Positions 6,592 through 36,491 of a stretch of 64,000 nucleotides of DNA are shown here, piece by piece (positions within the stretch are counted from its first letter, which is position 1; each line of letters begins with the position of its first letter). Source of the stretch: Amphibalanus amphitrite (Eukaryota > Arthropoda > Thecostraca > Balanomorpha > Balanidae). Location: positions 186,001-250,000 of the forward strand of contig NW_024881981.1 in assembly GCF_019059575.1 (NCBI RefSeq), given 5' to 3'. The translations under genes were made by a program, and so were the position numbers. The notes beneath the pieces were generated by a model. The model was not told where the DNA came from. It made no database searches and was given only the letters and a program-made list of their open reading frames with translations.

Positions 6592-6659
6592 TAGGGGCCG
6601 TCGATCCCTGCTGAATCCCTGCTGAACCCCTGCTGAATCCCTGCTAACTTCCGTTACAT
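6592..6659 (+). repeat. Isolated end fragment of the giant foldback family
   Basis: These bases match the outermost 68 bp of the right end of the giant element at 25324-25391, including four 11-bp tandem units of the type CCCTGCTGAAT and the terminal CCGTTACAT. The rest of an element is missing, so this is a truncated or excised copy of the same family. Confidence 0.8.
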
Positions 6660-7776: not shown

Positions 7777-8412
7777 CAGGGTTGCCAGATCCAGAATGGT
7801 CCTTATCGCCAAATTCGCCCCTCGAATTTCGCCAAAATTCGCCAAATAGGATGCGCTGTATAAGCATACGTAGCAGCGCAAGTTGGCGTTCGTGTAACCT
7901 ATCTCGTTTCTCATATTCATCTACATAACAGCGTACCTTAACCAGCGCCAAATAAAATAGCAAAGGCAGAGGTGGGGATCTCGGGGGGGGGGGCAGGACC
8001 CCCCCTGAAAACGAATTACTGCTATGTAAGTCAATGGTACTGCATCCAGCCCGCCTCCATCTGCCCGGCATGGACCCCCCCCCCCCTGACATTTTGACAG
8101 ATCTCCACCCCTGAGCAAAGGTCGTGCGAGATGTGGTTCAGAAGATATTTTCATCAGGAAGATTTTATATTTTAGTGCCTAATATGAAACGTCGGAAGGT
8201 TAAATTAATCAGATTACGAAATATTTCGTAACGATGTTTTTCGCTTTGTTTTGTTTATTTTTTTTTAAATAATATTCGGTTATTTGGAGGCGAACTCGGA
8301 AATTCGCCAATATTTGACGTTTTATCGCCTATCGCCAAACGCCGTGCTTCTATCGCCAATGACTTCCAAAATTCGCCAAATTGGCGACATATCGCCAAGT
8401 CTGGCAACCCTG
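7777..8412. mobile_element. hAT-type DNA transposon, non-autonomous, host of a nested hAT
   Basis: The ends are inverted copies of CAGGGTTGCCAGA, a classic hAT-like terminus. Flanks are near-duplicated: GTCTGGCC before (7769-7776) and GTCTGGGT then GTCTGGCC just after. Subterminal regions are rich in TCGCCAAAT-like repeats on both sides. A second hAT element (7967-8113) is inserted inside. No transposase frame is present. Confidence 0.75.
7967..8113. mobile_element. Small hAT MITE (147 bp) nested in a larger hAT
   Basis: The ends are CAGAGGTGGGGATCT and, inverted, CAGGGGTGGAGATCT. A perfect 8-bp duplication AGCAAAGG flanks it (7959-7966 and 8114-8121). The interior has a long G run near one end and a C run near the other. 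It inserted after the surrounding element at 7777-8412. Confidence 0.88.
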
Positions 8413-8824
8413 GTCTGGGTCTGGCCCGGCCTGGTCAGCGCGTCTCCCGGCGATACTTCAGTTTTTTACATTGAGGTAGCACAATTTTGATGATGCTTCA
8501 CTGTTTCTCCTTGGTCAATTACATAAAAAACAGCTTCAAAACACTTTGATTCGCAACATTTACCGAAATATAATAAAGAAACCACCCTATCGTCAGCACG
8601 CTACGTCAACTGCCACGACGCAAAATGGCGACGCTGTTTTGCCTCTGATGCGCCAGATATGTAACCTTAAGTAATTGGATACGACTACTAAATACAATAT
8701 GCCGATAATAGACTATTTTCCTCCTAGGGGACACTGGGAAATCGGGGTTTTCGGGTGAAGGTGATTGAGAAACGTGTTTGCTAGCGACGCGAACCAATGA
8801 TGTGGCCTTGGCCACAAATAGGGG

Positions 8825-8963
8825 ATATCTTAGGTAAGGGTAAATGGAAAAATGTTAGGTTAAAGAGTTCTGGAATTGTCTCCAGGCCGGCCGAAGGCCG
8901 GCCTGGAGCCTATTCCAGAACTCTTTAACCTAACATTTTTCCATTTACCCTTACCTAAGATAT
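8825..8963. repeat. Near-perfect 139-nt hairpin
   Basis: A 52-bp perfect outer stem (8825-8876 with 8912-8963) is followed by a 4x4 internal loop, a 12-bp perfect GC-rich inner stem (8881-8892 with 8896-8907) and a GAA loop. Such perfection implies recent origin or maintenance. It resembles a small foldback element or a long microRNA/siRNA precursor, but nothing shows it is transcribed. Confidence 0.9.
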
Positions 8964-9004
8964 ACTCCTTTTCGTCCCTAGCGCACAAACCCCTGGAAAC
9001 GTGG

Positions 9005-9151
9005 TAGGTTAGGTTAGGTTAGGTTAGGTTAGGTTAGGTTAGGTTAGGTTAGGTTAGGTTAGGTTAGGTTAGGTTAGGTTAGGTTAGGTTAGGTAAGGTT
9101 AGGTTAGGTTAGGTTAGGTTAGGTTAGGTTAGGTTAGGTTAGGTTAGGTTA
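9005..9151 (+). repeat. Interstitial telomeric (TTAGG)n array
   Basis: About 29 tandem units of the arthropod telomere pentamer, with one GGTAA variant near 9094. It lies between the arms of the composite inverted repeat, so it is internal and not a chromosome end. Confidence 0.95.
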
Positions 9152-9972
9152 TATTTGGTTTGAATCTAACCCCCCCTCCCCCACCCAAAAACCCCGATTT
9201 CCCAGTGTCCCCTAGGATGAAAATAGTTCTTGTTTCAGGATATTGTATTTAGTAGTCGCATCCAATTCTTTTAAATTACATATCTGGCGCATCAGAGGCA
9301 AAAAAATGTCGCCATTTTGCGTCTCTGCAGTGTGTGCGTAGCGCATCAAAGGTGGGGTGATTTCTTTATTATATTTCGGTAAGTGGTGCGAACTTAAGTG
9401 TTTTGAAACTGTTTTTGATGTAATTGGCCATCGAGAAGGAGAAACGATCATCAAAATTGTGTTTCTTTAATGTAAAAAACTGAAGTTTTACCAGTCTCCC
9501 GTCTCCTGCCTCCGCCGGGCTCTGGCCCTGTAATTAATTGGACCCCTGAAGTCCGGATGTAACGGAAGTTAGCAGGGATTCAGCAGGGGTTCAGCAGGGA
9601 TTCAGCAGGGATCGACGGCCCCTACGATTTCGCTGAATTTTGGTGGAGAGGTGCAGAATGGTGTCCTCTATCGAAAATCCTAGTGCCAAAATGCGGGGAA
9701 TCCATCAGGGGGGCCACAAATCCCAAAAAACAGTATGCCCTCAGGGCACAATCGACGAACTTTGAAAACCCTACTTCTAGCCGTCAAAACAGCTAAAAAT
9801 GCACGTCATTCGAAAGAGGACAAAATTTTACGTGCAACGGTAACAAATTTAGGGGGCTAGCGCCCCCCTGAACCGAACAAAACAGCTTCAAATATATCGG
9901 CCCGGGAGTATGCCCTCGGGGCATAAATAAACGTTTTCAACAATTTCAGGCCTATAACATCGACAAAATCCA

Positions 9973-12900
9973 GCAATATGCACATCATTGGAAAGAGCGT
10001 AATTTCCCAAACAAAAAACCCAAGTAACATTTTTCGATGGGGCCCACCTGGGGCCCACGGGACCCAATTGAAATTTGGGCCCCAATGGGGCGGCCCCTAC
10101 GATTTTCTTCAAAATTTGCACAGACACTCTCCTGGCCCCCCTCTTGAATCTGGCTGAAGAAACCTACCGGGGAATCCAAAGGAAGGGGCCCAAAGAGGGC
10201 CCCAAAGAGGCCCTTTCTAAGTATTGCCCCTAATTTCGCGACGAACCCCGGCAATATGCACATCATTGGAAAGAGCGTAATTTCCCAAACAAAAAACCCA
10301 AGTAACATTTTTCGATGGGGCCCACCTGGGGCCCACAGGACCCAATTGAAATTTGGGGCCCAATGGGGCGGCCCCTACGATTTTCTTCAAAATTTGCACA
10401 GACACTCTCCTGGGCCCCCTCTTCAATCTGGCTGAAGAAACCTACCGGGGAATCCAAAGGAAGGGGCCCAAAGAGGGCCCCAAAGAGGGCCCCAAAGAGG
10501 CCCTTTCTAAGTATTGCCCCTAATTTCGCGACTAACCCCGGCAATATGCACATCATTGGAAAGAGCGTAACTTCCCAAACAAAAAACCCAAGTAACATTT
10601 TTCGATGGGGCCCACCTGGGGCCCACGGGACCCAATTGAAATTTGGGGCCCAATGGGGCGGCCCCTACGATTTTCTTCAAAATTTGCACAGACACTCTCC
10701 TGGGCCCCCTCTTCAATCTGGCTGAAGAAACCTACCGGGGAATCCAAAGGAAGGGGCCCAAAGAGGGCCCCAAAGAGGCCCTTTCTAAGTATTGCCCCTA
10801 ATTTCGCGACCAACCCCGGCAATATGCACATCATTGGAAAGAGCGTAATTTCCCAAACAAAAAACCCAAGTAACATTTTTCGATGGGGCCCACCTGGGGC
10901 CCACGGGACCCAATTGAAATTTGGGGCCCAATGGGGCGGCCCCTACGATTTTCTTCAAAATTTGCACAGACACTCTTCTGGGCCCCCTCTTCAATCTGGC
11001 TGAAGAAACCTACCGGGGAATCCAAAGGAAGGGGCCCAAAGAGGGCCCCAAAGAGGCCCTTTCTAAGTATTGCCCCTAATTTCGCGACCAACCCCGGCAA
11101 TATGCACATCATTGGAAAGAGCGTAATTTCCCAAACAAAAAACCCAAGTAACATTTTTCGATGGGGCCCACCTGGGGCCCACGGGACCCAATTGAAATTT
11201 GGGGCCCAATGGGGCGGCCCCTACGATTTTCTTCCAAATTTGCACAGACACTCTTCTGGGCCCCCTCTTCAATCTGGCTGAAGAAACCTACCGGGGAATC
11301 CAAAGGAAGGGGCCCAAAGAGGGCCCCAAAGAGGCCCTTTCTAAGTATTGCCCCTAATTTCGCGACCAACCCCGGCAATATGCACATCATTGGAAAGAGC
11401 GTAATTTCCCAAACAAAAAACCCAAGTAACATTTTTCGATGGGGCCCACCTGGGGCCCACAGGACCCAATTGAAATTTGGGGCCCAATGGGGCGGCCCCT
11501 ACGATTTTCTTCAAAATTTGCACAGACACTCTCCTGGGCCCCCTCTTCAATCTGGCTGAAGAAACCTACCGGGGAATCCAAAGGAAGGGGCCCAAAGAGG
11601 GCCCCAAAGAGGCCCTTTCTAAGTATTGCCCCTAATTTCGCGACCAACCCCGGCAATATGCACATCATTGGAAAGAGCGTAATTTCCCAAACAAAAAAAA
11701 AACAAGTAACATTTTTCAATGGGGCCCACCTGGGGCCCACAGGACCCAATTGAAATTTGGGGCCCAATGGGGCGGCCCCTACGATTTTCTTCAAAATTTG
11801 CACAGACACTCTCCTGGGCCCCCTCTTCAATCTGGCTGAAGAAACCTTCCGGGGAATCCAAAGGAAGGGGCCCAAAGAGGGCCCCAAAGAGGCCCTTTCT
11901 AAGTATTGCCCCTAATTTCGCGACCAACCCCGGCAATATGCACATCATTGGAAAGAGCGTAATTTCCCAAACAAAAAACCCAAGTAACATTTTTCGATGG
12001 GGCCCACCTGGGGCCCACAGGACCCAATTGAAATTTGGGGCCCAATGGGGCGGCCCCTACGATTTTCTTCAAAATTTGCACAGACACTTTCCTGGGCCCC
12101 CTCTTCAATCTGGCTGAAGAAACCTACCGGGGAATCCAAAGGAAGGGGCCCAAAGAGGGCCCCAAAGAGGCCCTTTCTAAGTATTGCCCCTAATTTCGCG
12201 ACCAACCCCGGCAATATGCACATCATTGGAAAGAGCGTAATTTCCCAAACAAAAAACCCAAGTAACATTTTTCAATGGGGCCCACCTGGGGCCCACAGGA
12301 CCCAATTGAAATTTGGGGCCCAATGGGGCGGCCCCTACGATTTTCTTCAAAATTTGCACAGACACTCTCCTGGGCCCCCTCTTCAATCTGGCTGAAGAAA
12401 CCTTCCGGGGAATCCAAAGGAAGGGGCCCAAAGAGGGCCCCAAAGAGGCCCTTTCTAAGTATTGCCCCTAATTTCGCGACCAACCCCGGCAATATGCACA
12501 TCATTGGAAAGAGCGTAATTTCCCAAACAAAAAACCCAAGTAACATTTTTCGATGGGGCCCACCTGGGGCCCACAGGACCCAATTGAAATTTGGGGCCCA
12601 ATGGGGCGGCCCCTACGATTTTCTTCAAAATTTGCACAGACACTTTCCTGGGCCCCCTCTTCAATCTGGCTGAAGAAACCTACCGGGGAATCCAAAGGAA
12701 GGGGCCCAAAGAGGGCCCCAAAGAGGCCCTTTCTAAGTATTGCCCCTAATTTCGCGACCAACCCCGGCAATATGCACATCATTGGAAAAAGCGTAATTTC
12801 CCAAACAAAAAACCCAAGTAACATTTTTCGATGGGGCCCACCTGGGGCCCACAGGACCCAATTGAAATTTGGGGCCCGATGGGGCGGCCCTACGATTTTC

Positions 12901-13154
12901 TTCAAAATTTGCACAGACACTCTCCTGGGCCCCCTCTTCAATCTGGCTGAAGAAACCTACCGGGGAATCCAAAGGAATGGGCCCAAAGAGGGCCCCAAAG
13001 AGGCCCTTTCTAAGTATTGCACCTAATTTCGCGACTAACCCCGGCAATATGCACATCATTGGAAAGAGCGTAATTTCCCAAACAAAAAAACCAAGTAACA
13101 TTTTTCGATGGGGCCCACCTGGGGCCCACGGGACCCAATTGAAATTTGGGGCCC
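9973..13154 (+). repeat. Left arm: tandem 278-bp satellite units
   Basis: About 11.4 units with strict 278-bp spacing, apart from one 12-bp insertion (an extra GGGCCCCAAAGA near 10485) and a 2-bp expansion of an A run at about 11692. Each unit contains about six GGGCCC palindromes. Open frames of 107-166 codons occur on both strands, but 278 is not a multiple of three and the frames recur as a by-product of the repeat, so I do not call genes. Confidence 0.95.
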
Positions 13155-13163
13155 AATGGGCCC
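13155..13163. other. Head-to-head junction of the foldback arms
   Basis: The nine bases AATGGGCCC separate GAAATTTGGGGCCC (13141-13154) from its exact inverse (13164-13177). It is the symmetry centre of a palindrome several kilobases long. Confidence 0.9.
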
Positions 13164-16100
13164 GGGCCCCAAATTTCAATTGGGTCCCGTGGGCCCCAGG
13201 TGGGCCCCATCAAAAAATGTTACTTGGGTTTTTGTTTGGGAAATTACGCTCTTTCCAATGATGTGCATATTGCCGGGGTTAGTCGCGAAATTAGGGGCAA
13301 TACTTAGAAAGGGCCTCTTTGGGGCCCTCTTTGGGCCCATTCCTTTGGATTCCCCGGTAGGTTTCTTCAGCCAGATTGAAGAGGGGGCCCAGGAGAGTGT
13401 CTGTGCAAATTTTGAAGAAAATCGTAGGGGCCGCCCCATCGGGCCCCAAATTTCAATTGGGTCCTGTGGGCCCCAGGTGGGCCCCATCGAAAAATGTTAC
13501 TTGGGTTTTTTGTTTGGGAAATTACGCTCTTTCCCATGATGTGCATATTGCCGGGGTTGGTCGCGAAATTAGGGGCAATACTTAGAAAGGGCCTCTTTGG
13601 GGCCCTCTTTGGGCCCCTTCCTTTGGATTCCCCGGTAGGTTTCTTCAGCCAGATTGAAGAGGGGGCCCAGGAGAGTGTCTGTGCAAATTTTGAAGAAAAT
13701 CGTAGGGGCCGCCCCATTGGGCCCCAAATTTCAATTGGGTCCTGTGGGCCCCAGGTGGGCCCCATCGAAAAATGTTACTTGGGTTTTTTGTTTGGGAAAT
13801 TACGCTCTTTCCAATGATGTGCATATTGCCGGGGTTGGTCGCGAAATTAGGGGCAATACTTAGAAAGGGCCTCTTTGGGGCCCTCTTTGGGCCCCTTCCT
13901 TTGGATTCCCCGGTAGGTTTCTTCAGCCAGATTGAAGAGGGGGCCCAGGAGAGTGTCTGTGCAAATTTTGAAGAAAATCGTAGGGGCCGCCCCATTGGGA
14001 CCCAAATTTCAATTGGGTCCCGTGGGCCCCAGGTGGGCCCCATCGAAAAATATTACTTGGGTTTTTTGTTTGGGAAATTACGCTCTTTCCAACGATGTGC
14101 ATATTGCCGGGGTTGGTTGCGAAATTAGGGGCAATACTTAGAAAGGGCCTCTTTGGGGCCCTCTTTGGGCCCCTTCCTTTGGATTCCCCGGTAGGTTTCT
14201 TCAGCCAGATTGAAGAGGGGGCCCAGGAGAGTGTCTGTGCAAATTTTGAAGAAAATCGTAGGGGCCGCCCCATTGGGCCCCAAATTTCAATTGGGTCCTG
14301 TGGGCCCCAGGTGGGCCCCATCGAAAAATGATACTTGGGTTTTTTGTTTGGGAAATTACGCTCTTTCCAATGATGTGCATATTGCCAGGGTTGGTAGCGA
14401 AATTAGGGGCAATACTTAGAAAGGGCCTCTTTGGGGCCCTCTTTGGGCCCCTTCCTTTGGATTCCCCGGTAGGTTTCTTCAGCCAGATTGAAGAGGGGGC
14501 CCAGGAGAGTGTCTGTGCAAATTTTGAAGAAAATCGTAGGGGCCGCCCCATTGGGCCCCAAATTTCAATTGGGTCCTGTGGGCCCCAGGTGGGCCCCATC
14601 GAAAAATGTTACTTGGGTTTTTTGTTTGGGAAATTACGCTCTTTTCAATGATGTGCATATTGCCGGGGTTGGTCGCGAAATTAGGGGCAATACTTAGAAA
14701 GGGCCTCTTTGGGGCCCTCTTTGGGCCCCTTCCTTTGGATTCCCCGGTAGGTTTCTTCAGCCAGATTGAAGAAGGGGCCGAGGAGAGTGTCTGTGCAAAT
14801 TTTGAAGAAAATCGTAGGGGCCGCCCCATTGGGCCCCAAATTTCAATTGGGTCCTGTGGGCCCCAGGTGGGCCCCATCGAAAAATTATACTTGGGTTTTT
14901 TGTTTGGGAAATTACGCTCTTTCCAATGATGTGCATATTGCCGGGGTTGGTCGCGAAATTAGGGGCAATACTTAGAAAGGGCCTCTTTGGGGCCCTCTTT
15001 GGGCCCCTTCCTTTGGATTCCCCGGTAGGTTTCTTCAGCCAGATTGAAGAGGGGGCCCAGGAGAGTGTCTGTGCAAATTTTGAAGAAAATCGTAGGGGCC
15101 GCTATATTGAGCCCCAAATTTCAATTGGGTCCTGTGGGCCCCAGGTGGGCCCCATCGAAAAATGATACTTGGGTTTTTTGTTTGGGAAATTACGCTCTTT
15201 CCAATGATGTGCATATTGCCAGGGTTGGTCGCGAAATTAGAGGCAATACTTAGAAAGGGCCTCTTTGGGGCCCTCTTTAGGCCCCTTCCTTTGGATTCCC
15301 CGGTAGGTTTCTTCAGCCAGATTGAAGAGGGGGCCCAGGAGAGTGTCTGTGCAAATTTTGAAGAAAATCGTAGGGGCCGCCCCATTGGGCCCCAAATTTC
15401 AATTGGGTCCTGTGGGCCCCAGGTGGGCCCCATCGAAAAATGTTACTTGGGTTTTTTGTTTGGGAAATTACGCTCTTTCCAATGTTGTGCATATTGCCGG
15501 GGTTCGTCGCGAAATTAGGGGCAATACTTAGAAAGGGCCTCTTTTGGGCCCTCTTTGGGCCCCTTCCTTTGGATTCCCCGGTAGGTTTCTTCAGCCAGAT
15601 TGAAGAGGGGGCCCAGGAGAGTGTCTGTGCAAATTTTGAAGAAAATCGTAGGGGCCGCCCCATTGGGCCCCAAATTTCAATTGGGTCCCGTGGGCCCCAG
15701 GTGGGCCCCATCGAAAAATGTTACTTGGGTTTTTTGTTTGGGAAATTACGCTCTTTCCAATGATGTGCATATTGCCGGGGTTGGTCGCGAAATTAGGGGC
15801 AATACTTAGAAAGGGCCTCTTTGGGGCCCTCTTTGGGCCCCTTCCTTTGGATTCCCCGGTAGGTTTCTTCAGCCAGATTGAAAAGGGGGCCCAGGAGAGT
15901 GTCTGTGCAAATTTTGAAGAAAATCGTAGGGGCCGCCCCATTGGGCCCCAAATTTCAATTGGGTCCCGTGGGCCCCAGGTGGGCCCCATCGAAAAATGTT
16001 ACTTGGGTTTTATGTTTGGGAAATTACGCTCTTTCCAATGATGTGCATATTGCCGGGGTTGGTCGCGAAATTAGGGGCAATACTTAGAAAGGGCCTCTTT

Positions 16101-18092
16101 GGGGCCCTCTTTGGGCCCCTTCCTTTGGATTCCCCGGTAGGTTTCTTCAGCCAGATTGAAAAGGGGGCCCAGGAGAGTGTCTGTGCAAATTTTGAAGAAA
16201 ATCGTAGGGGCCGCCCCATTGGGCCCCAAATTTCAATTGGGTCCCGTGGGCCCCAGGTGGGCCCCATCGAAAAATGTTACTTGGGTTTTTTGTTTGGGAA
16301 ATTACGCTCTTTCCAATGATGTGCATATTGCCGGGGTTGGTCGCGAAATTAGGGGCAATACTTAGAAAGGGCCTCTTTGGGGCCCTCTTTGGGCCCCTTC
16401 CTTTGGATTCCCCGGTAGGTTTCTTCAGCCAGATTGAAAAGGGGGCCCAGGAGAGTGTCTGTGCAAATTTTGAAGAAAATCGTAGGGGCCGCCCCATTGG
16501 GCCCCAAATTTCAATTGGGTCCCGTGGGCCCCAGGTGGGCCCCATCGAAAAATGTTACTTGGGTTTTATGTTTGGGAAATTACGCTCTTTCCAATGATGT
16601 GCATATTGCCGGGGTTGGTCGCGAAATTAGGGGCAATACTTAGAAAGGGCCTCTTTGGGGCCCTCTTTGGGCCCCTTCCTTTGGATTCCCCGGTAGGTTT
16701 CTTCAGCCAGATTGAAAAGGGGGCCCAGGAGAGTGTCTGTGCAAATTTTGAAGAAAATCGTAGGGGCCGCCCCATTGGGCCCCAAATTTCAATTGGGTCC
16801 CGTGGGCCCCAGGTGGGCCCCATCGAAAAATGTTACTTGGGTTTTTTGTTTGGGAAGTTACGCTCTTTCCAATGATGTGCATATTGCCGGGGTTAGTCGC
16901 GAAATTAGGGGCAATACTTAGAAAGGGCCTCTTTGGGGCCCTCTTTAGGCCCCTTCCTTTGGATTCCCCGGTAGGTTTCTTCAGCCAGATTGAAGAGGGG
17001 GCCCAGGAGAGTGTCTGTGCAAATTTTGAAGAAAATCGTAGGGGCCGCCCCATTGGGCCCCAAATTTCAATTGGGTCCTGTGGGCCCCAGGTGGGCCCCA
17101 TCGAAAAATGTTACTTGGGTTTTTTGTTTGGGAAATTACGTTCTTTCCAATGATGTGCATATTGCCGGGGTTGGTCGCGAAATTAGGGGCAATACTTAGA
17201 AAGGGCCTCTTTGGGGCCCTCTTTGGGCCCCTTCCTTTCGATTCCCCGGTAGGTTTCTTCAGCCAGATTGAAGAGGGGGCCCAGGAGAGTGTCTGTGCAA
17301 ATTTTGAAGAAAATCGTAGGGGCCGCCTTATTGGGCCCCAAATTTCAATTGGGTCCTGTGGGCCCCAGGTGGGCCCCATCGAAAAATGATATTTGGGTTT
17401 TTTTGTTTGGGAAATTACGCTCTTTCCAATGATGTGCATATTGCCAGGGTTGGTCGCGAAATTAGAGGCAATACTTAGAAAGGGCCTCTTTGGGGCCCTC
17501 TTTGGGCCCCTTCCTTTGGATTCCCCGGTAGGTTTCTTCAGCCAGATTGAAGAGGGGGCCCAGGAGAGTGTCTGTGCAAATTTTGAAGAAAATCGTAGGG
17601 GCCGCCCCATTGGGCCCCAAATTTAAATTGGGTCCTGTGGGCCCCAGGTGGGCCCCATCGAAAAATGTTACTTGGGTTTTTTGTTTGGGAAATTACGCTC
17701 TTTCCAATGATGTGCATATTGCCGGGGTTCGTCGCGAAATTAGGGGCAATACTTAGAAAGGGCCTCTTTGGGGCCCTCTTTGGGCCCCTTCCTTTGGATT
17801 CCCCGGTAGGTTTCTTCAGCCAGATTGAAGAGGGGGCCCAGGAGAGTGTCTGTGCAAATTTTGAAGAAAATCGTAGGGGCCGCCCCATTGGGCCCCAAAT
17901 TTCAATTGGGTCCCGTGGGCCCCAGGTGGGCCCCATCGAAAAATGTTACTTGGGTTTTTTGTTTGGGAAATTACGCTCTTTCCAATGATGTGCATATTGC
18001 CAGGGTTGGTCGCGAAATTAGGGGCAATACTTAGAAAGGGCCTCTTTGGGGCCCTCTTTGGGCCCCTTCCTTTGGATTCCCCGGTAGGTTTC
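13164..18092 (-). repeat. Right arm, first part: tandem 278-bp satellite units in reverse orientation
   Basis: About 17.7 units of the same satellite, inverted relative to the left arm. Between about 15718 and 16830 variants alternate with a 556-bp period (a TATGTTTGGG variant at about 16011 and 16567), so a two-unit block was duplicated. The array is cut at GTTTC (18088-18092) by the first LTR retrotransposon and resumes at 24229. Confidence 0.95.
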
Positions 18093-18269
18093 TGTTGTAT
18101 CGTGAGCCTGGCTACGCGTAGTTCAGTTAGCGACCGCCAGGTGGAAACCGGTCGCCGGTTGTGCGGCAGTCGGCCGCCGGCCCGCGCAGGGCGTGGATGT
18201 GTTCTTGTTGGCTGTGCGCCAAGTGGGCGCGCAATCGCAGACGCGGAATAAAGAACTCACATTATATCA
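18093..18269 (+). repeat. 5' LTR of retrotransposon 1 (177 bp)
   Basis: A TG...CA-bounded LTR with an AATAAA polyadenylation signal at 18247-18252, 17 bases before the LTR end. No TATA box was seen. Confidence 0.95.
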
Positions 18270-18323
18270 AATTGGCGACGAGGATCAGATCAAGGTGAAG
18301 CCTTGGAGCTGTGATTGCGAGTG

Positions 18324-18407
18324 ATGGCGAAACGGACCGGTGATCAGTGCGCGGTGGTCAGTGAGGGCGGACAGGCCACGGACGGTGAGGGCGCAAACGT
18401 TGCTTAG
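18324..18407 (+). CDS. Small upstream reading frame in the leader of retrotransposon 1
   Basis: A 27-codon frame beginning MAKRTGDQCAVV. The same frame, length and stop are kept in retrotransposon 2 at 35658-35741 with two residue changes. Its function is unknown; it could affect translation of the downstream Gag-Pol frame or simply be conserved with the leader. Confidence 0.4.
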   Translation: MAKRTGDQCAVVSEGGQATDGEGANVA

Positions 18408-18587
18408 TACGAATGCTTAGTGCTTAGTATTGCTTAGTATTTTTTATTTTCGCGCTGCTGCTGGTAGTCTGCCTGTCGCGCGGCGGCCGTGGTCGTGGCA
18501 GGATTTCCATGTGATCGCCATTTGTGGCGGCCATGATGCCTCGGCAGTGTGGTGTGCGTGGCGCATGCGTCGGCGTGCTGCACGCTG

Positions 18588-18790
18588 ATTGGTCGGCCGG
18601 GGGTGACGCGCAGCTGTGGCAGCGCGTGTGATTGGCCGATTGGTGCGGCGGGGAGGGCCTCAATGCGGTTTGAGGTGCCTGGTCCCCAAGCGGATAATTT
18701 CGGCGGGAAGCTGGCGCGCGGCCGGGCGGTTCGGGACGAGTGCGCATGCGCGCGCGGTGACGTGCGTGTGACGTCACTACCACGTGACTC
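18588..18790 (+). promoter_or_regulatory. Candidate internal promoter in the leader of retrotransposon 1
   Basis: Three ATTGG (inverted CCAAT) boxes lie at about 18598-18643. A TGCGCATGCGCG palindrome (NRF1-like) is at 18741-18752, a perfect CRE TGACGTCA at 18769-18776 and a CACGTG E-box at 18781-18786. The same set, in the same order, occurs in the leader of retrotransposon 2. That a promoter is present is an inference from motif clustering. Confidence 0.45.
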
Positions 18791-18854
18791 CCCCGTCGAG
18801 TAAAGCGCGGGAAACCGCAGCCGGCAGCGCCAAGACGGGCGCAGGGCGGCGCGG

Positions 18855-19170
18855 TGAGCGGTGACGGTCGGCGTGAGCGGTGGCCGACCGGCGTGAGCGG
18901 TGGCCGACCGGCGTGTGCGGTGACCGGCCGGTGTGAGCGGTGATGCCCGGGGCGGGCCGACCGGTGGAGCGGCGGCGGGCCGACCGGTGAAGCGGCGGCG
19001 GGCCGACCGGTGGAGCGGCGGCGGGCCGACCGGTGGAGCGGCGGCGGGCCGACCGGTGGAGCGGCGGCGGGCCGACCGGTGGAGCGGCGGCGGGCCGACC
19101 GGTGGAGCGGCGGCGGGCCGACCGGTGGAGCGGCGGCGGGCCGACCGGTGGAGCGGCGGCGGGCCGGCCG
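18855..19170 (+). repeat. Minisatellites before gag: 20-bp then 23-bp units
   Basis: A degenerate 20-bp repeat (GTGAGCGGTGGCCGACCGGC) is followed by about nine copies of a 23-bp unit (CCGGTGGAGCGGCGGCGGG core). It is GC-extreme and ends about 30 bases before the Gag-Pol start. A related but different array sits at the same place in retrotransposon 2. Confidence 0.9.
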
Positions 19171-19202
19171 GAGGAACGACGCGCTGGTGAGAGCACGGCA
19201 GC

Positions 19203-22200
19203 GTGATGGATCCAACGGGCATGCAGCTGGTGTCTGCGGGGCCGTACCGGGCAGGCACGGACTTCGAGAAATGGCTGCGAGCGTTGGAGCGCTACATGGT
19301 CGCCATGGACATCCAAGGGCCTACCAGACGGTGCGCCGTGCTGCTACACCTGGTGGGGCCTGACATAGCCGATGTCAGCGACTCCCTGCCGGAAGAGGAG
19401 GCAGAAGGACCGGAGGAAGACGAGTTCACCCGGCTAAAAAGGAAGTTGGTACGGTACCTGGTGCCAAGGAATAACGTCGTGGCTGAACGAGGGAAATTCC
19501 AAGGAATGACAATGGAGCCGGAGGAAAGCCTGGAGGAGTTCCTGGCCAGGCTACGGACCCAAATCCTGCGCTGCGGCTACGAGCCGGCGCAGGTGAACCG
19601 GGAGCTGCGAGACCGCTGCGTCCTGGGCAGCCGAGGCGAGCTGCAGCGGAAGCTGGTGAGGGAAGCGGCACTGAAGGGCGACGAACTCAACCTGGAGGAT
19701 GTCCGGCGGACGGCACGCGCCCACCGGGACGTCATGGACCTGACGACTCGGTTGTCAGGGGCGCCGGTACCGGCTGCGACGGACGGGGAGGCAGTCCAGG
19801 TGGTGAGACGCCAGCGGCGGGCGGAGACGGCCAGGCCGGCCGAGCGCCCGGGACCGGGCTCGTGCTTCGGCTGCGGAGGCCGGGGACACTGGCGGCGGGA
19901 CTGTCCGACGGCCAGGGCGGACTCGGCGCCGGAGAGGGCGCGCCCTCCGGTGGCAGGAGCGGTGCAGCAGCGCGGAGTGTCTCGCCCGCCCGGCCCGGCA
20001 GACGGCGGTCGGCGAGACAGCAGACGCGGCGGACCGCTCGAGAAGAGGAGGTGCTTCAAATGTGGCAGAACTGGACACCTGAAGCGGGACTGTCCAGGAA
20101 TCGGACAGGTGGCGTCCGTGGAGGAGGATGTCGTGATGACGGTGGCGCAGCTGACGAGCCAGGACCGGCTGCCACTGGTAACTCTGTCTGTCAACGGCCG
20201 GGAGACTGAGATGCTGGTTGACACCGGGTCACCAGTGTCGATCGTGGCGGACGGCAGCATCCCGGGACTGAAGCTGAGACCGTCCAAGATGCAGCTACGC
20301 TCGTTCACGGGTCAGCCGGTGCCGGTCCGCGGCGAGGCGACCGTGCAGGCGGAGTATGGCGGCCAGCGGAAGCGGCTGAACGTGGTTGTCAGCGGTCAGC
20401 TCCGACACCACCCGCTGCTGGGGCGCGACTGGCTGCGTGAAATACGTCTGGACTGGCGGTCGCTGCTGCAGGTCAGCGAGGCCAGCAAAGTGAGCGGCGG
20501 GCGGACGCTGAGCTCAGTGACGGCGGCGCACGCAGCAGTGTTTGCAGGGGGCCTCGGCACGATGGAGCAGCGCGCGCACCTGACCCTAAAGCCGGACGCG
20601 GTGCCGCGGCGGCTACCACCGCGACCAGTACCGTACGCGCTGCTGCCGCAAGTGGAGGCCGAGCTGGACCGATGGGTCAGAGACGGGATAGCAAGAAAGG
20701 TCGACCCGTCCGAAACCAGTACAGGCTGGGGCACGCCACTGGTTCCGGTGCCGAAGCCGGGAGGCGGGGTGAGGCTCTGTGCGAGCTACAACCTCACAGT
20801 GAACCCGCAGCTGATCGTCAAGCACCACCCGCTGCCGAAGCCGGAAGATGTGTTCGCAGGGGTGAGTGGCAAGCTGTTCTGCAAGCTGGACCTAAAGCAT
20901 GCGTACCAGCAGATGCCGCTCGATGAGGAGTCTCGAGCAATGACGACCGTCAGCACTCACAAGGGCGAATTCGTCATGAAGAGACTGCCGTTCGGGGTCG
21001 CCAGTTCCGGTGCCCTCTTCCAGGAGGCCATGGACCGGGTCCTGGAAGGACAGGAGGGATGCCGGTGTTACCTGGATGACCTATTGGTGTTCGGAGCGGA
21101 CGAGCAACAGCTGCTGCAGCGGCTGGACGAGATCCTCGGAAGACTGGAGCGGCAGGGCCTGCGGCTGGCGGCGCAGAAATGCCAGCTGGCGGTGCCAGAA
21201 GTCGAGTTCCTGGGGTGGAAGGTGACGGCTGAGGGCATCGCACCGACTGACGGCGGTGTAGCAGCAGTGCTGCAGGCACCGGAGCCGACGGACGTCAGCC
21301 AACTGAGGTCGCTCCTGGGCTCCATCACCTACTTCGGGCGTCTGCTGCCCGATCTGTCGACAGTGCTGGCGCCGCTCTATCAGCTGACCAAGAAGGGCGT
21401 GCCGTGGGCATGGACAGAGCAGTGCGCCAAGGCGGTGGAGAAGGTGAAACGGATGCTGACTAGCCCGCCGGTGTTGATGCGGTATGACCCGGACCTGCCG
21501 CTGAGGCTCGTGACAGATGCCAGCAGTGTGGGTGTCGGCGCGGCGCTGGTTCACGTGACACCGGACGGGGCGGAGAGGCCGGTGATGTATGCGTCACGGA
21601 CGCTGACGCCCACAGAAAGGAAGTACCCACAAGTCGAGCGCGAGGCAGCGGCGGTGTCATTCGGGATAACCCGCTTCCATCGGTTCCTGTACGGGCGGCC
21701 TTTCACGCTCGTGGTGGATAATAGGGCTCTATCCCGGATCCTGAGCCCGGACAGAGACCTGCCGAGCCTGGCGGCTGCCCGCCTCCAGAGGTACGCGCTG
21801 CAGCTGGCGGCGTACAGCTACGCAGTGGAGCTGCGCCGGTCCGAGCACATGCACATGGCCGACAGTCTGTCGCGCCTGGCCATGCCGTGCTCGGGTGTCG
21901 AGCGAGAGAAGATCGACAGAGAAGGAGCCGACGTCAGCTTCCTGTGCTACATGGACGGCGCGGCGCCGGTGCTGACGGCAGAGGCGCTTGCGTCAGCAAC
22001 GCGGCGCGATCCAGTGCTGGCCAGGGTGCTAACGTTCGTCCGGTGCGGTTGGCCGGCTGAGGTCGAGCCGGAGCTGGTGCCTTTCAAGCGGCGCCAGGAC
22101 GAGCTGTCGACGGATGGCGAGTGTCTCGTGTGGGGCGGCCGTGCTGTCATCCCACAGCAGCTCCGGGCGCGGGTGCTGCGTGAGCTGCATGAGGGGCACC

Positions 22201-23630
22201 TTGGCAGCTCAAAAATGAAAAACTTGGCTCGGCGATATGTGTGGTGGCCGGGGCTGGATGCAGAGCTCGAGGGCGCGGCACGCGATTGCGCAGAGTGCAT
22301 GGACAAGCGAGGAGCGCCGCCCCACAGTGATCGGCACCCGTGGGAGCCGGCCGGAGGCCCGTGGGAGCGTATCCACATAGACTATGCGGGCCCCTTCCAG
22401 GGCTTGAACTTTCTGGTGGTGTGCGACAGCTATACCAAGTGGCTGGAGGTGATCCCGATGCGAGAGACGGGCACAGAGAGCACTGTGAGAGAGCTGCGGG
22501 CGATGTTTGCGCGTTTCGGCATCCCCCGCCAACTCGTGTCGGATAATGGTGCTCAGTTCACCTCTGCTCCGTTCGCTGCATTCCTGAGCAACAATGGAGT
22601 GCGGCACGTCAGGGTGGCACCATATCACCCAAGCAGCAACGGAGCGGCGGAGCGGGCGGTGCAAACGGCCAAGAACGGACTGAAGGCGGCCCTGCGGGAT
22701 GGTGGTTCTCTGTCACAGCGGCTGCAGAAGTTTCTGCTGGCCTACCGGGCGGCACCGCACTCGGGCACGGGACGATCGCCAGCCGAAATGATGTTCGGCC
22801 GGAACGTGCGGACGCGGCTGGATACGCTGCGGCCCGATCCGATGGACAGGTTTCGGGATCAGCAGCAACGGCAACGGGAGGCGGCAGGCGGCCGGCACAG
22901 GGAGCTGAACATCGGAGACACGGTGTGGGCTAGATGTTACAGCGGCCCGCAGAAGTGGAGACTGGGGACGGTGGCCGCACGGACCGGACCGGTGTCGTAT
23001 GAGATAGCTGTTGCCGATGCTCTCTGGTCGCGGCACGTCGATCAACTCATCAGCGCGGAGCCAGTGCGGACCGGCCAGCGGGCGGCCGCCGCCGGGACGG
23101 TCGTGCCAGCGGCGCTCGGCGAGCCCGGTGCTGGCGCCAGCGGCGGCGCGAGGACGGCCGTGCCGGCGCCGCCCGGCGCTGCCGGCAGGATCTCCAGCGA
23201 AGGCATCAGGTCGGCTGTACCGGGGGCGATCGGCGGGGCCGGTGCCGGCGCCAGCGGAGGCGACGGTGGAGACAGCCGAGTGGTGACACCCCCAGCGAGC
23301 GGATTCACAGAGTGTAGCGGCGACGCAGCGGATCTGTATCGGGCTGGTCGCCCTCGGGCGAGCGGTGGAGAGACGGTGAGCGAGGCCGAAGGAACAGGTT
23401 GCGCGCGCGGTGGCGCTACTGACGGACCGCCGGCAGCGGTGAGCGGTGCTGGTGGGACCGGCGGCGCGCGCGGTAGCAAGCCTAACGCTTCGCCGGGAGT
23501 GGTGAGCGGCGCCGGTGGGACAGGACATGGCGCGCGCGGCGGCGATTGTAAAGGACCGCCGGCAGAGGTGCGGCGGCGGTTATCCGTGCGTCACTCTCAG
23601 CCACCGAGGAGGTGGATAACTGAGATGTGA
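19203..23630 (+). CDS. Gag-Pol polyprotein of Ty3/gypsy retrotransposon 1 (1475 aa)
   Basis: A single open frame encodes all retrotransposon functions. The Gag part ends with two CCHC zinc knuckles (first cysteines at residues 221 and 284). An aspartic protease follows with a DTGSP motif (Asp340), then reverse transcriptase with the catalytic YLDD (623-626) and RNase H beginning near Asp772. The integrase has a zinc-binding HHCC module starting at His996 and the catalytic triad Asp1060, Asp1114 and Glu1150 (35 residues between the last two). The protein then runs into a Gly/Ala/Arg-rich tail of about 200 residues with no clear domain. The order RT-RNase H-integrase marks Ty3/gypsy. Gag and Pol are fused in one frame, so no frameshift is needed. 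I start at the ATG at 19203, whose first residues match those of the second element. No stop or missing catalytic residue was seen. Confidence 0.96.
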   Translation: MMDPTGMQLVSAGPYRAGTDFEKWLRALERYMVAMDIQGPTRRCAVLLHLVGPDIADVSDSLPEEEAEGPEEDEFTRLKRKLVRYLVPRNNVVAERGKFQGMTMEPEESLEEFLARLRTQILRCGYEPAQVNRELRDRCVLGSRGELQRKLVREAALKGDELNLEDVRRTARAHRDVMDLTTRLSGAPVPAATDGEAVQVVRRQRRAETARPAERPGPGSCFGCGGRGHWRRDCPTARADSAPERARPPVAGAVQQRGVSRPPGPADGGRRDSRRGGPLEKRRCFKCGRTGHLKRDCPGIGQVASVEEDVVMTVAQLTSQDRLPLVTLSVNGRETEMLVDTGSPVSIVADGSIPGLKLRPSKMQLRSFTGQPVPVRGEATVQAEYGGQRKRLNVVVSGQLRHHPLLGRDWLREIRLDWRSLLQVSEASKVSGGRTLSSVTAAHAAVFAGGLGTMEQRAHLTLKPDAVPRRLPPRPVPYALLPQVEAELDRWVRDGIARKVDPSETSTGWGTPLVPVPKPGGGVRLCASYNLTVNPQLIVKHHPLPKPEDVFAGVSGKLFCKLDLKHAYQQMPLDEESRAMTTVSTHKGEFVMKRLPFGVASSGALFQEAMDRVLEGQEGCRCYLDDLLVFGADEQQLLQRLDEILGRLERQGLRLAAQKCQLAVPEVEFLGWKVTAEGIAPTDGGVAAVLQAPEPTDVSQLRSLLGSITYFGRLLPDLSTVLAPLYQLTKKGVPWAWTEQCAKAVEKVKRMLTSPPVLMRYDPDLPLRLVTDASSVGVGAALVHVTPDGAERPVMYASRTLTPTERKYPQVEREAAAVSFGITRFHRFLYGRPFTLVVDNRALSRILSPDRDLPSLAAARLQRYALQLAAYSYAVELRRSEHMHMADSLSRLAMPCSGVEREKIDREGADVSFLCYMDGAAPVLTAEALASATRRDPVLARVLTFVRCGWPAEVEPELVPFKRRQDELSTDGECLVWGGRAVIPQQLRARVLRELHEGHLGSSKMKNLARRYVWWPGLDAELEGAARDCAECMDKRGAPPHSDRHPWEPAGGPWERIHIDYAGPFQGLNFLVVCDSYTKWLEVIPMRETGTESTVRELRAMFARFGIPRQLVSDNGAQFTSAPFAAFLSNNGVRHVRVAPYHPSSNGAAERAVQTAKNGLKAALRDGGSLSQRLQKFLLAYRAAPHSGTGRSPAEMMFGRNVRTRLDTLRPDPMDRFRDQQQRQREAAGGRHRELNIGDTVWARCYSGPQKWRLGTVAARTGPVSYEIAVADALWSRHVDQLISAEPVRTGQRAAAAGTVVPAALGEPGAGASGGARTAVPAPPGAAGRISSEGIRSAVPGAIGGAGAGASGGDGGDSRVVTPPASGFTECSGDAADLYRAGRPRASGGETVSEAEGTGCARGGATDGPPAAVSGAGGTGGARGSKPNASPGVVSGAGGTGHGARGGDCKGPPAEVRRRLSVRHSQPPRRWITEM

Positions 23631-24051
23631 TCGGGTGGGAAAATACGTGATTTTACGGAGATGTGATCGGGCGGAAGGATCGAGCGGAAGAATATGTGAT
23701 TCCGTGTGTCAATAGGTGCCACCGATAAGGTGGATAACAGATGTGATTGGCCAGGGAAAGTGTGGGTCAATTTGTACCGCCGAGAAGGGTGATGACTGAT
23801 TAGTTATTATCGTTTGGAAGTACAGACTGATAAGCAGTGTAAGGGCAGACGTGCGCGACTCTAAAGTCAGTGAATTTGTAGTTATGTTCGTATCGCACGG
23901 ATGTGAGCGATGTCAGTGATCGCACTAAAATAGGCGGCAGTGTTGACGCTGTAAGTGACCGGACTGGATTTGACTAGTTTGTGGTGGCTCGTAGGTTGAG
24001 TAAGTTATGTTTGATAGTTCGATGTTCGAACTCAAATCCAGGGGGGCAGGG
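23631..24051 (+). other. 3' untranslated region and polypurine tract of retrotransposon 1
   Basis: After the stop, degenerate GTGATCGGG/AAGGTGGATAAC-like repeats fill about 150 bases. The purine tract AGGGGGGCAGGG (24040-24051) directly abuts the 3' LTR and is the likely plus-strand primer. Confidence 0.75.
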
Positions 24052-24228
24052 TGTTGTATCGTGAGCCTGGCTACGCGTAGTTCAGTTAGCGACCGCCAGG
24101 TGGAAACCGGTCGCCGGTTGTGCGGCAGTCGGCCGCCGGCCCGCGCAGGGCGTGGATGTGTTCTTGTTGGCTGTGCGCCAAGTGGGCGCGCAATCGCAGA
24201 CGCGGAATAAAGAACTCACATTATATCA
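24052..24228 (+). repeat. 3' LTR of retrotransposon 1 (177 bp)
   Basis: Reads identical to the 5' LTR and is followed by the target duplication GTTTC at 24229-24233, where the 278-bp satellite resumes. Confidence 0.95.
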
Positions 24229-24974
24229 GTTTCTTCAGCCAGATTGAAGAGGGGGCCCAGGAGAGTGTCTGTGCAAATTTTGAAGAAAATCGTAGGGGCC
24301 GCCCCATTGGGCCCCAAATTTCAATTGGGTCCCGTGGGCCCCAGGTGGGCCCCATCGAAAAATGTTACTTGGGTTTTTTGTTTGGGAAATTACGCTCTTT
24401 CCAATGATGTGCATATTGCCGGGGTTGGTCGCGAAATTAGGGGCAATACTTAGAAAGGGCCTCTTTGGGGCCCTCTTTGGGCCCCTTCCTTTGGATTCCC
24501 CGGTAGGTTTCTTCAGCCAGATTGAAGAGGGGGCCCAGGAGAGTGTCTGTGCAAATTTTGAAGAAAATCGTAGGGGCCGCCCCATTGGGCCCCAAATTTC
24601 AATTGGGTCCTGTGGGCCCCAGGTGGGCCCCATCGAAAAATGTTACTTGGGTTTTTTGTTTGGGAAATTACGCTCTTTCCAATGATGTGCATATTGCCAG
24701 GGTTGGTTGCGAAATTAGGGGCAATACTTAGAAAGGGCCTCTTTGGGGCCCTCTTTGGGCCCCTTCCTTTGGATTCCCCGGTAGGTTTCTTCAGCCAGAT
24801 TGAAGAGGGGGCCCAGGAGAGTGTCTGTGCAAATTTTGAAGAAAATCGTAGGGGCCGCCCCATTGGGCCCCAAATTTCAATTGGGTCCTGTGGGCCCCAG
24901 GTGGGCCCCATCGAAAAATGTTGCTTGGGTTTTTTGTTTGGGAAATTACGCTCTTTCCAATGATGTGCATATTG
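24229..24974 (-). repeat. Right arm, last part: 278-bp satellite units
   Basis: About 2.7 further units in the same orientation as 13164-18092. Removing the LTR element and one copy of GTTTC rejoins a normal unit, which confirms the insertion. Confidence 0.95.
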
Positions 24975-25400
24975 CTGGATTTTGTCGATGTTATAGGCCT
25001 GAAATTGTTGAAAACATTTATTTATGCCCCGAGGGCATACTCCCGGGCCCATATATTTGAAGCTGTTTTGCTCGGTTCAGGGGGGCGCTAGCCCCCTAAA
25101 TTTGGTACCGTTGCACGTAAAATTTTGTCCTCTTTCGAATGACGTGCATTTTTAGCTGTTTCGACGGCTAGAAGTAGGGTTTTCAAAGTTCGTCGATTGT
25201 GCCCTGAGGGCATACTGTTTTTTGGGATTTGTGGCCCCCCTGATGGATTCCCCGCATTTTGGCACTAGGATTTTCGATAGAGGACACCATTCTGCACCTC
25301 TCCACCAAAATTCAGCGAAATCGTAGGGGCCGTCGATCCCTGCTGAATCCCTGCTGAACCCCTGCTGAATCCCTGCTAACTTCCGTTACATGAAGTCCGG

Positions 25401-26366
25401 TCGTTGGTGTCCAACTCAGCGCCACACATCACCAATTGGAAAAATCGATGGTTCTTAATTTTTTTTCACCAGCATATTCAGAGAATTAATTGGTATGACG
25501 AGGACATTGTAACAGGCAGATTCCAGACTTCGGCAGGGAATAAGTAGGTACGTAGCTAACTGTCAAAGTTTTGCCGAGCAATAACTTTCTTATTCTAAAT
25601 CCTGTATGACATTGTTGACTTATCTAGCTATTCAGTCATTTATGACACTCTTTGACTTGCTTCGAATGGTTAGTCATTTGACCTTAAAGTAAACGAGATC
25701 ATGACTTGACTGAAAAAAGGTCATACCTACTTGTAAGGGGAGTTGTTGGCAGAAACGCACCAGTTTTACGTTACGTGGTGCGTACTCGTATGTACACTGA
25801 CCAGACAGATCATAATGCATTAGTGTCACATGATCATTTATCATTTTGTACACCTACCTTTTGATGCCTGTAGCGAAGAGATCCGCGGTTGTAAGTCTTG
25901 GATGATAGTTGCAAGCCGTCGTTAGCTGTTATTGAGGATCGGTGGAGCTTCGGATTGATTTCAATGGCAGAACCCCAGGGCAGATTTATTTTAACACAAA
26001 ACCCAATCAGTTTATCGATATGGTGTAACGAAAACATATACGAATAGGTATCTATCTCTTCCAGACATAATGCGCCACGGATAGAGATAATAGTTATTTT
26101 GATGAAAATCAGTGCTTTATCGCAAACATCAAGACCAATATTTCGCGCTCCATCAGTATTGCTATACAATATACATATCTCCTCAATCTGCGACGTCCCC
26201 ATTCCAAGCATAGCCCAACAATCACGGCACACTACAATTACTATCACAACTTGTTAGATTGCATTGAAAACCCACTAGATGAGTCCATGTATATCACATA
26301 TCAAGTCTCAAGATACCGACCGCACTTTCGTCATCTGATGAATAGTGACTAGACTGGTTCCAGCCC
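25401..26366. other. AT-rich intergenic sequence, no supported gene
   Basis: A 137-codon open frame on the minus strand (25834-26247) has no recognisable domain and no splice or start context, so I leave it uncalled. The stretch separates the giant foldback element from the SLC35G1-like exon and may be its 3' flank. Confidence 0.4.
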
Positions 26367-30850: not shown

Positions 30851-30944
30851 TCGCCCCAAAAGGCGTTATGCTGGTTTTATTTTTTATAGGTGGAATGCGT
30901 TGGCGGTTGAACCAGCACGGCTCGTAGGAAATTCATTTCATCCA

Positions 30945-31424
30945 CCAAAGAAACGAAATATACCGTTCGAAAGCTGACGGTGAGCTGATTCCAAAACAGT
31001 ATTTTATATAGAAATCGTTCCATGGCCTTTTTAAGAAATTGCGTTTTTGTAAAATCGTAAAAATCTTTTATTTCATTCAACGAGCTGTCCAGGACAATCT
31101 TTAAATCATAGTCATGTTTTTTTCGATTACCAGTGAAAGCTGAATGCCAAAAGAACAATAGGTATGTAGCGAAAAAGTATTCTGAAATATTAAGATGTGT
31201 CTCTCACAGCCGGCAACAAGGCGCAATCACACAACTCAGTGTCACGACGGATCAAAGTAAGCCACACAAAGGCGTCAAATGACCCTTATCAACGCGCAGA
31301 CCCGGCGCTCTCAGCTGTCTGACGGGCCACAGAAGAGACGTTCGGCTGTCGCTCTGCTAAACAGACGTCATTTTTGTTAGTTTAACAATTCAAGTCGGTA
31401 CTTAAGCAATTCAGGATACCTGAT
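30945..31424 (-). repeat. Solo copy of the 0.5-kb inverted-repeat family
   Basis: Matches, with scattered changes, each arm of the inverted repeat at 50734-52092 (same order of AAAGAAACGA, AGCTGACGGTGAGCTGA, AAAAGAACAATA and CAGGATACCTG). Only one arm is present here. Strand is arbitrary. Confidence 0.8.
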
Positions 31425-35366: not shown

Positions 35367-35603
35367 TGTGGTGTCGCGAGCTGCTCCCCCCCTGCCCCGG
35401 GGCCTGGCGACGCCAGTTGCTCCCCCCTGCCCGGGGGCCTGGCGACGCCATTGGCGGCGCCGGCGCGCAGACGCGGGGTTCGAGAGCAGTCGGCCGCCGG
35501 CCCGCGCGGAGCGCGGTTGTGGTAGTAGCGATCGGTGTTTGGCGCTCTAGGAAGTTTAACGCAATGCGGCTTTGGTTGTGAATAAAGAGCTCACGTTATA
35601 ACA
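35367..35603 (+). repeat. 5' LTR of retrotransposon 2 (237 bp)
   Basis: TG...CA-bounded, with two copies of a CCTGGCGACGCCA-type segment near its start and AATAAA at 35581-35586. It shares short stretches with LTR 1 (CAGTCGGCCGCCGGCCCGCGC and AATAAAGARCTCAC) but is otherwise different. Confidence 0.95.
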
Positions 35604-35657
35604 TCCTGGCGACGAGGATGAGATCAAGGTGAAGCCTTGGAGCTGTGATTGCGAGTG

Positions 35658-35741
35658 ATGGCGAAACGGGCCAGTGATCAGTGCGCGGTGGTCAGCGAGG
35701 GCGGACAGGCCACGGACGGTGAGGGCGCAAACGTTGCTTAG
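35658..35741 (+). CDS. Small upstream reading frame in the leader of retrotransposon 2
   Basis: The same 27-codon frame as at 18324-18407 in element 1 (starting MAKRASDQCAVV), with the same stop. Only two residues differ. Function unknown. Confidence 0.4.
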   Translation: MAKRASDQCAVVSEGGQATDGEGANVA

Positions 35742-35924
35742 TACGAATGCTTAGTGCTTAGTATTGCTTAGTATTTTTATTTTCGCGCTGCTGCTGGTAG
35801 TGTGCCTGTCGCGCGGCGGCCGTTGTCCTGGCAGGGTTTCCCATGTGATCGCCGAAATTCGTGGCGGCCATGATGCCTCGGCAGTGTGGTGTGCGTGGCG
35901 CATGCGTCGGCGTCCTGCACGCTG

Positions 35925-36130
35925 ATTGGTCGGCCGGGGGTGACGCGCAGCTGTGGTAGCGCGTGTGATTGGCCGATCGGTGCGGCGGAGAGGGCCTCAA
36001 TGCGGTTTGAGGCGCCTGGTCCCCGAAGCGGGCAATTTCGGCGGGAAGCTGGCGCGCGGCCGGGCGGTGTGGGGCGAGTGCGCATGCGCGCGCGGTGACG
36101 TGCGTGTGACGTCACTACCACGTGACGCCC
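35925..36130 (+). promoter_or_regulatory. Candidate internal promoter in the leader of retrotransposon 2
   Basis: ATTGG boxes, a TGCGCATGCGCG palindrome starting at 36079, a CRE TGACGTCA at 36107-36114 and a CACGTG E-box at 36119-36124 keep the order and spacing seen in element 1. Confidence 0.45.
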
Positions 36131-36189
36131 CCGTCGAGAAAAGCGCGGGAAACCGCAGCTGCAGCGCCAAGTACAGGCGCAGGGCGGCG

Positions 36190-36470
36190 CGGTGAGCGGT
36201 GACCGGTCGGCGTGAGCGGTGGCCGACCGGCGTGTGCGGTGGCCGACCGGCGTGTGCGGTGACCGGCCGGTGTGAGCGGTGACCGGCCGGTGTGAGCGGT
36301 GACGCCCGGCTGCGGGCCGACCGGTGGAGCGGCTGCGGGCCGCCGGTGGAGCGGCTGCGGGCCGCCGGTGGAGCGGCTGCGGGCCGACGGTGGAGCGGCC
36401 GCGGGCCGACGGTGGAGCGGCTGCGGGCCGACGGTGGAGCGGCGGCGAGCCGACCGGAGAAACGACGTGC
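36190..36470 (+). repeat. Minisatellites before gag in retrotransposon 2
   Basis: 20-bp units (GTGAGCGGTGACCGGCCGGT type) are followed by GGAGCGGCTGCGGGCCGMCGGT units of about 22 bp. The position matches the array in element 1, but the units differ, so the arrays turn over faster than the flanking leader. Confidence 0.85.
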
Positions 36471-36491
36471 TGGTGAGAGGGCGGCGGCACG

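Follow-up and report, generated by a model that had tools for sequence, protein, structure and literature searches.

Structure of the element

A window of 64,000 bp from Amphibalanus amphitrite (contig NW_024881981.1, positions 186,001 to 250,000) contains, at positions 9557-25391, a large foldback element whose arms consist of facing arrays of a 278-bp satellite. The element starts and ends with the same 17-bp tip, ATGTAACGGAAGTTAGC, found exactly at 9557 on the forward strand and at 25375-25391 on the reverse strand, and it is bounded by a 9-bp target duplication, GAAGTCCGG, whose left (9548-9556) and right (25392-25400) copies are also exact. Both features had been read in a first-pass annotation of the window, and both hold on either side. 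When up to three mismatches are allowed, the tip word occurs 3 times in the window as compared with 0.12 expected. Next to the flanks lie two end domains of 416 bp, one at 9557-9972 (forward) and the other at 24976-25391 (reverse), that differ at 5 of 416 bases (98.8% alike). In particular, the outermost 60 bp, which are unlike the satellite unit, are made of the tip followed by 3.8 copies of an 11-bp repeat (9571-9612).

The left array (9973-13160, forward) comprises 11 full units and a partial one, and it meets the right array at a palindrome centre (13107-13211) with perfect 48-bp arms (13107-13154 and 13164-13211) around a 9-base loop (13155-13163). The inner part of the right array (13164-18092, reverse) begins with a partial unit at the centre, continues with 17 full units and finishes with the inner piece of an interrupted unit, the remainder of which is found together with two full units in the outer part (24229-24975, reverse). 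The arms are thus facing and unequal: the left one has 11 full units, the right one has 19 in addition to the interrupted one, and a pair of partial units occupies the centre, consistent with the roughly 32 units originally counted. The interruption is a later insertion of a Ty3/Gypsy-like retroelement (18093-24228, forward), whose 177-bp long terminal repeats (LTRs) are identical and which is flanked by the 5-bp duplication GTTTC (18088-18092 and 24229-24233). Upon removal of the retroelement and of one GTTTC copy, the element measures 9,694 bp, close to the 9.7 kb initially estimated. The unit has a G+C content of 52%. It also carries six GGGCCC sites (mean 0.75 and maximum 4 in 2,000 shuffles); 188 of the 207 GGGCCC sites of the window sit inside the arrays (9973-18092 and 24229-24975), and the centre of this copy falls on one as well.

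The proposal that the element lacks coding capacity is supported, as five reading frames of the array matched no Pfam family above the cut-off, two weak ribosomal-protein matches lying below it. Ten reading frames near a single family end (described below) and elsewhere in the window similarly included no transposase above the cut-off. No RNA family reached its gathering score in the interval 9000-26000, the folding energies of the end domain and of one unit were unremarkable, and one pattern searched in each of the viral and prokaryote collections gave no match.

Relationship between the end domain and the satellite unit

The ends had been described as unique sequences of about 415 bp. Their extent was correct, but they are not unrelated to the array. 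Indeed, bases 9616-9874 are collinear with about one circularly permuted 278-bp unit, with 157 of 230 aligned bases identical and an alignment score of 56 against a maximum of 41 among 500 shuffles; against the consensus unit, all 300 window controls scored lower than the end, whichever of three scorings was applied. By this alignment, the end domain appears to contain a degenerate unit at 9616-9874. The 278-bp unit therefore probably arose by duplication of part of the end domain. An origin of the unit from the end has likewise been proposed for the Drosophila virilis element Tetris, on the basis of a 37-bp stretch that connects its flanking domain and unit (PMC4079207).

A family of mobile copies

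The assembly from which the window derives (807.5 Mb in 2,644 contigs, the window being C484:186001-250000) was searched for other copies, as the first-pass annotation had advised. The 32-bp tip has 182 exact matches in the genome, 86 forward and 96 reverse, while its reversed control has none. The listed positions, the first 100 of these and some further ones, leave out tips that follow an A or a G on contigs after C617. Twenty copies with paired tips less than 10 kb apart were fetched whole, making 21 with the window copy, and target duplications were counted in 35 copies read at both ends, the window copy included; C1437 and C104:1003862-1015595 were read at one end. A perfect duplication flanks 30 of the 35 copies, 9 bp long in 26 and 10 bp in 4, so that the duplications expected at other copies were largely found. 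Empty sites were sought for two copies and found for both. The flanks of the window copy are found joined on contig C21, around a single GAAGTCTGG, in an alignment with 335 identical columns out of 355. The C545 copy sits in a repeat; 12 insertion-free matches to it, 96-100% identical, extend over 199-200 of 200 bases, and one that lies on the same contig is 100% identical. In parallel, no relationship is seen among the 60-base outer flanks of the 20 copies fetched, no pair of which exceeds 35/60 identical bases. The shared ends, the duplications and the two empty sites demonstrate that satellite array and transposon are one mobile unit, as had been suggested. A 36-bp unit word has 2,097 exact occurrences in the genome. 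Among the first 100 of them, our own count puts 87 in arrays that have an exact tip and 13 elsewhere, indicating that the element is the main carrier of the satellite; arrays independent of it may also exist.

All 20 fetched copies repeat the layout of the window copy (end, forward array, reverse array, end). No middle domain is present in these 21 copies, and a coding middle is absent from every copy read. Long terminal inverted repeats with internal tandem repeats, found in all 21, together with the target duplications, are the features that define the foldback class. Unit numbers vary, as anticipated, from 2+2 to 6+26 in the fetched copies, and the lengths of left and right arms are uncorrelated (r = -0.16, 21 copies). 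Subtracting end domains and units gives a remainder of -8 to 31 bases for 19 fetched copies; the 672 residual bases of the twentieth, L050, reflect a break in its right end domain. The possibility that large copies house a middle domain was considered and rejected, as the size of the two copies concerned is due to insertions in the arms. C936, read throughout in five pieces, spans 21.8 kb and holds in its arms two insertions with long reading frames, retroelement-like as judged by eye, in addition to a 471-bp repeat at its centre. C10, of which the middle and outer ends were read, owes its 13.1 kb to one LTR-bounded insertion beside a bare centre.

Centres and arms

The centre was located in the 21 copies as the junction where the forward array stops and the reverse array starts. 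There are 16 distinct head-to-head junctions among them; 9 of the 16 show an overlap of at least 2 bp, as compared with 17% of random joins between unit and inverted unit, and 7 contain inserts of 2-31 bp. Visual inspection shows copies of neighbouring unit words in two of the inserts, that of L044 and the one common to L039 and L049. The centre is joined differently in most copies read, a pattern suggesting that DNA-break repair remakes it. In particular, we infer that end joining remakes the centre, following either incomplete gap repair or breakage of the palindrome.

Some junctions recur. Three groups are found among the 21 copies: L041, L043 and L048, with L045 in the opposite orientation; L034 and L050; and L039 and L049. 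A fourth is formed by C936, C1745 and C1437, which are 99.8-99.9% identical over 1 kb across the centre, including the 471-bp repeat, and have unrelated 1.5-kb left flanks; of these, C936 is flanked by a 9-bp duplication and C1745 by none, and C1437 was read at its near end. Recurrence at unrelated sites argues that the junctions are real and heritable, and it means that joined copies transpose. The 471-bp sequence (L072:1815-2285) is a separate high-copy repeat, with 1,107 first-look candidates, the best 40 of which scored 98-100% identical. Because this one repeat occupies the centre of three copies at unrelated sites, the element seems able to move other DNA.

The arms, in turn, go on changing after joining. 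Copies with the same junction differ in unit number (10+14, 7+13 and 6+11), yet they keep the order of several marker variants. A block of about five units is repeated in L039, as judged by eye, and a two-unit block in the window copy (units L07-L08 and L09-L10). In the latter copy, the idea that the arms are two separate pools of units was rejected, as the mean distance between arms (5.24) is comparable to that within the left (4.84) and the right (5.42) arm (permutation p 0.54). No fixed period of unit variants emerged in its right arm, where the best lag, 8, did not reach significance when lags 1-12 were considered together (0.21); three successive matching neighbours did (0.007, post hoc).

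Relationship to known transposons

Mutator-like elements (MULEs) generate target duplications of 8-11 bp. The family described here falls within this range, with 9 bp in 26 copies and 10 bp in 4, next to the 5 copies without duplication. In published families the duplications are of 8-9 bp (PMC5225508) or 9 bp (PMC3169594), in the excerpts of these and the other papers cited in this section. At least 111 matches to the Mutator-like family PF10551 are present in the genome, from the best 150 of 204 candidates scored; by eye, none of these lies within 100 kb of a listed tip, the listed tips being part of the total. One Mutator-like locus, L079:959-3075, has imperfect inverted ends made of tandem units of about 15 bp and a 9-bp duplication, CCGTACTAC, that a scan of neighbouring positions revealed. 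In the mosquito Aedes aegypti, Muta1 and other Mutator-like families combine 8-9-bp duplications with a terminal motif followed by subterminal tandem repeats of 9-15 bp, which are present in most of the families with long ends, and have many non-autonomous derivatives with foreign middles (PMC5225508). They differ from the present family in that satellite-sized arms are not mentioned in these excerpts and full-length members encode a transposase (PMC5225508). Tm1, a Mutator/Foldback element of root-knot nematodes, also has 9-bp duplications and a terminal motif with short tandem repeats in unequal number, while its tandem repeats are of about 14 bp, its elements are short and some copies contain a transposase (PMC3169594). 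The word GATTCAG is common to Tm1 and to the window family; since 437 of 20,000 shuffled 11-mers reach such a match as well, it is no proof of kinship with Tm1. A Mutator kinship of the family appears probable.

The closest known system would be Tetris, together with Tm1 and Muta1, and by comparison of descriptions, rather than sequences, the family can be regarded as a foldback transposon of the Tetris kind. Indeed, the link between foldback arms and satellites has already been published for Tetris, which is similarly non-coding, generates 8-10-bp duplications and has long terminal repeats that combine an outer flanking domain with tandem units, each of about 220 bp, which expand into satellite arrays; fibre fluorescence in situ hybridization reveals long arrays between two outer domains, an arrangement like the one seen here (PMC4079207). 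Differences are also evident, as Tetris has inner and middle domains, AT-rich units and terminal repeats of at most 1,735 bp in complete copies (PMC4079207), whereas the window family has a 278-bp unit, up to 26 units per arm, copy-specific centres and, in the 21 copies, no middle domain. Thus, the inner and middle domains that separate the arrays of Tetris have no counterpart here, the 471-bp centre of C936, C1745 and C1437 being a separate repeat. Galileo, of the P superfamily, resembles the family in its long terminal repeats with internal units of about 210 bp that vary independently in each arm (PMC3573991, PMC4168063). It differs in that its duplications are 7-8 bp long, those in D. willistoni favouring a certain target (PMC4168063), and in having terminal repeats of up to about 1.26 kb and a P-type transposase (PMC3573991, PMC4168063); all 30 perfect duplications of the present family are of 9 or 10 bp. 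Copy-specific centre junctions are not described in the excerpts cited here, and full-text literature searches, their results mostly judged by titles, listed no paper recognisably about them; no publication was found that combines 278 bp, satellite and foldback.

Mechanism and alternative explanations

Taken together, the element probably belongs to a non-coding family of foldback transposons that move by cut and paste, carry satellite arrays as arms and have their centres remade. How this might come about can be outlined as follows. A transposase, most likely of the Mutator-like type, would be provided in trans and act on the tip and its 11-bp repeats. Upon excision of a copy, or breakage of its palindrome, repair synthesis would run inward on each arm and often halt early, and the two unfinished arms would then be joined through microhomology or by end joining with short inserts, thus creating a new centre. 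Such a course, in which inward copying stops early and the unfinished arms are joined, is known as abortive gap repair, reportedly described by Rubin and Levy (1997). The joined copy would then transpose as a unit, while unequal exchange would make the arms longer and shorter, with the outcome that a satellite is made, kept and spread as the arms of a transposon. More tentatively, the family may make its own palindrome anew, excision and incomplete repair joining outer-anchored satellite arms at fresh microhomology, so that the satellite would be generated, lengthened and dispersed as a by-product; we hold this stronger version to be possible, somewhat short of probable.

Several observations weigh against this interpretation. 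The duplication is absent from 5 of the 35 copies (L036, L041, L043, C961 and C1745), the 20 fetched copies were all selected from pairs less than 10 kb apart, and the arrays are known from assembly sequence alone. No transposase has been linked to the ends, and none of the 4 Mutator-like loci read out of 111 has a tip. The junction overlaps are approximate, as they depend on where alignments end, and the largest span mismatches (17 in L033, 7 in the window copy). Furthermore, an intact progenitor with a middle domain is missing among the copies read, so that incomplete gap repair and breakage of the centre are not told apart. Finally, the innermost units of the window copy share three derived variants, which fits copying by folding better than the joining of independent arms.

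According to the first alternative, copies with intact centres transposed and their palindromes were later cut, by hairpin or cruciform cleavage, and rejoined, apart from transposition. Long palindromes are prone to breakage, and microhomology and short-insert junctions would be equally expected from such events. This scenario is limited by the four junction groups found at several sites, which indicate that new centres also pass through transposition, and we regard it as rather unlikely. The variants shared at the centre lead to the second alternative, in which snap-back synthesis copies one arm onto itself, making the arms mirror copies at each centre. In the window copy, units L11 and R19 share the three derived variants, two of which occur in no other unit of the copy, around a centre that is a 48-bp perfect inverted repeat, and mirror pairing gives a permutation p of 0.047; the innermost pair of L040 also shares two rare variants. 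The innermost pair is without a shared rare variant in 19 of the 21 copies, and mirror copying thus does not hold in general. Fold-back copying is therefore improbable as a general explanation, although it could still apply to single copies such as that of the window. A mirror symmetry extending outward from the window centre was considered separately and rejected, as the signal comes from the innermost unit pair, which holds 3 of the 5 shared variants (permutation p 0.047). A plain satellite inversion or an assembly artefact is very improbable, since, although arrays and palindromes are hard to assemble and exact unit numbers are unproven, the copies are many and dispersed, with target duplications and empty sites, and an assembly chimera was rejected because the arms differ in length and unit variants, the outer flanks differ between sides and identical junctions recur at independent sites on separate contigs.

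Neighbouring elements in the window

Other repeats lie around the element. The single family end (6592-6659, reverse) consists of 68 bp that match the element's own end at 100% identity; it is the tip domain alone and has no partner end in the window. At 7778-8414, the facing words CCAGGGTTGCCAGA and TCTGGCAACCCTGG, identified by eye, resemble the ends of another small inverted-repeat element. A second inverted-repeat element, at 8442-9501, has arms of about 306 bp that are 83% alike and carries a 29-copy array of TTAGG, the arthropod telomere repeat; it is flanked twice by GTCTCCCG, and contig C21, without the element, has the site once. Together with a CLIP-domain match, the TTAGG array would point to an arthropod host. 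On the other side, a near-palindrome of 1,359 bp at 50734-52092 has identical 20-base tips (starting with CACGGTTCGTCGG) and a 4-bp CAGT duplication, and an arm related to it (79-80% alike) is present at 30912-31422. Finally, a second Ty3/Gypsy-like retroelement (35367-41578), with 237-bp direct repeats that are 100% identical and a frame of 1,561 amino acids, is related to the retroelement inside the foldback element.

Significance

These results touch on the long-standing question of how satellites arise and scatter. The connection between foldback transposons and satellites is already known from Tetris; what distinguishes the present family is its copy-specific centres, its unit and its lack of inner and middle domains. 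A single assembly thus offers one satellite in many copies that are marked by their insertion; in each of them the repair junction can be read and the arms have their own lengths. Such copies allow one to count how often a palindrome is rebuilt, to follow the repair route involved and to look for any tie between the growth of satellite arrays and transposition.

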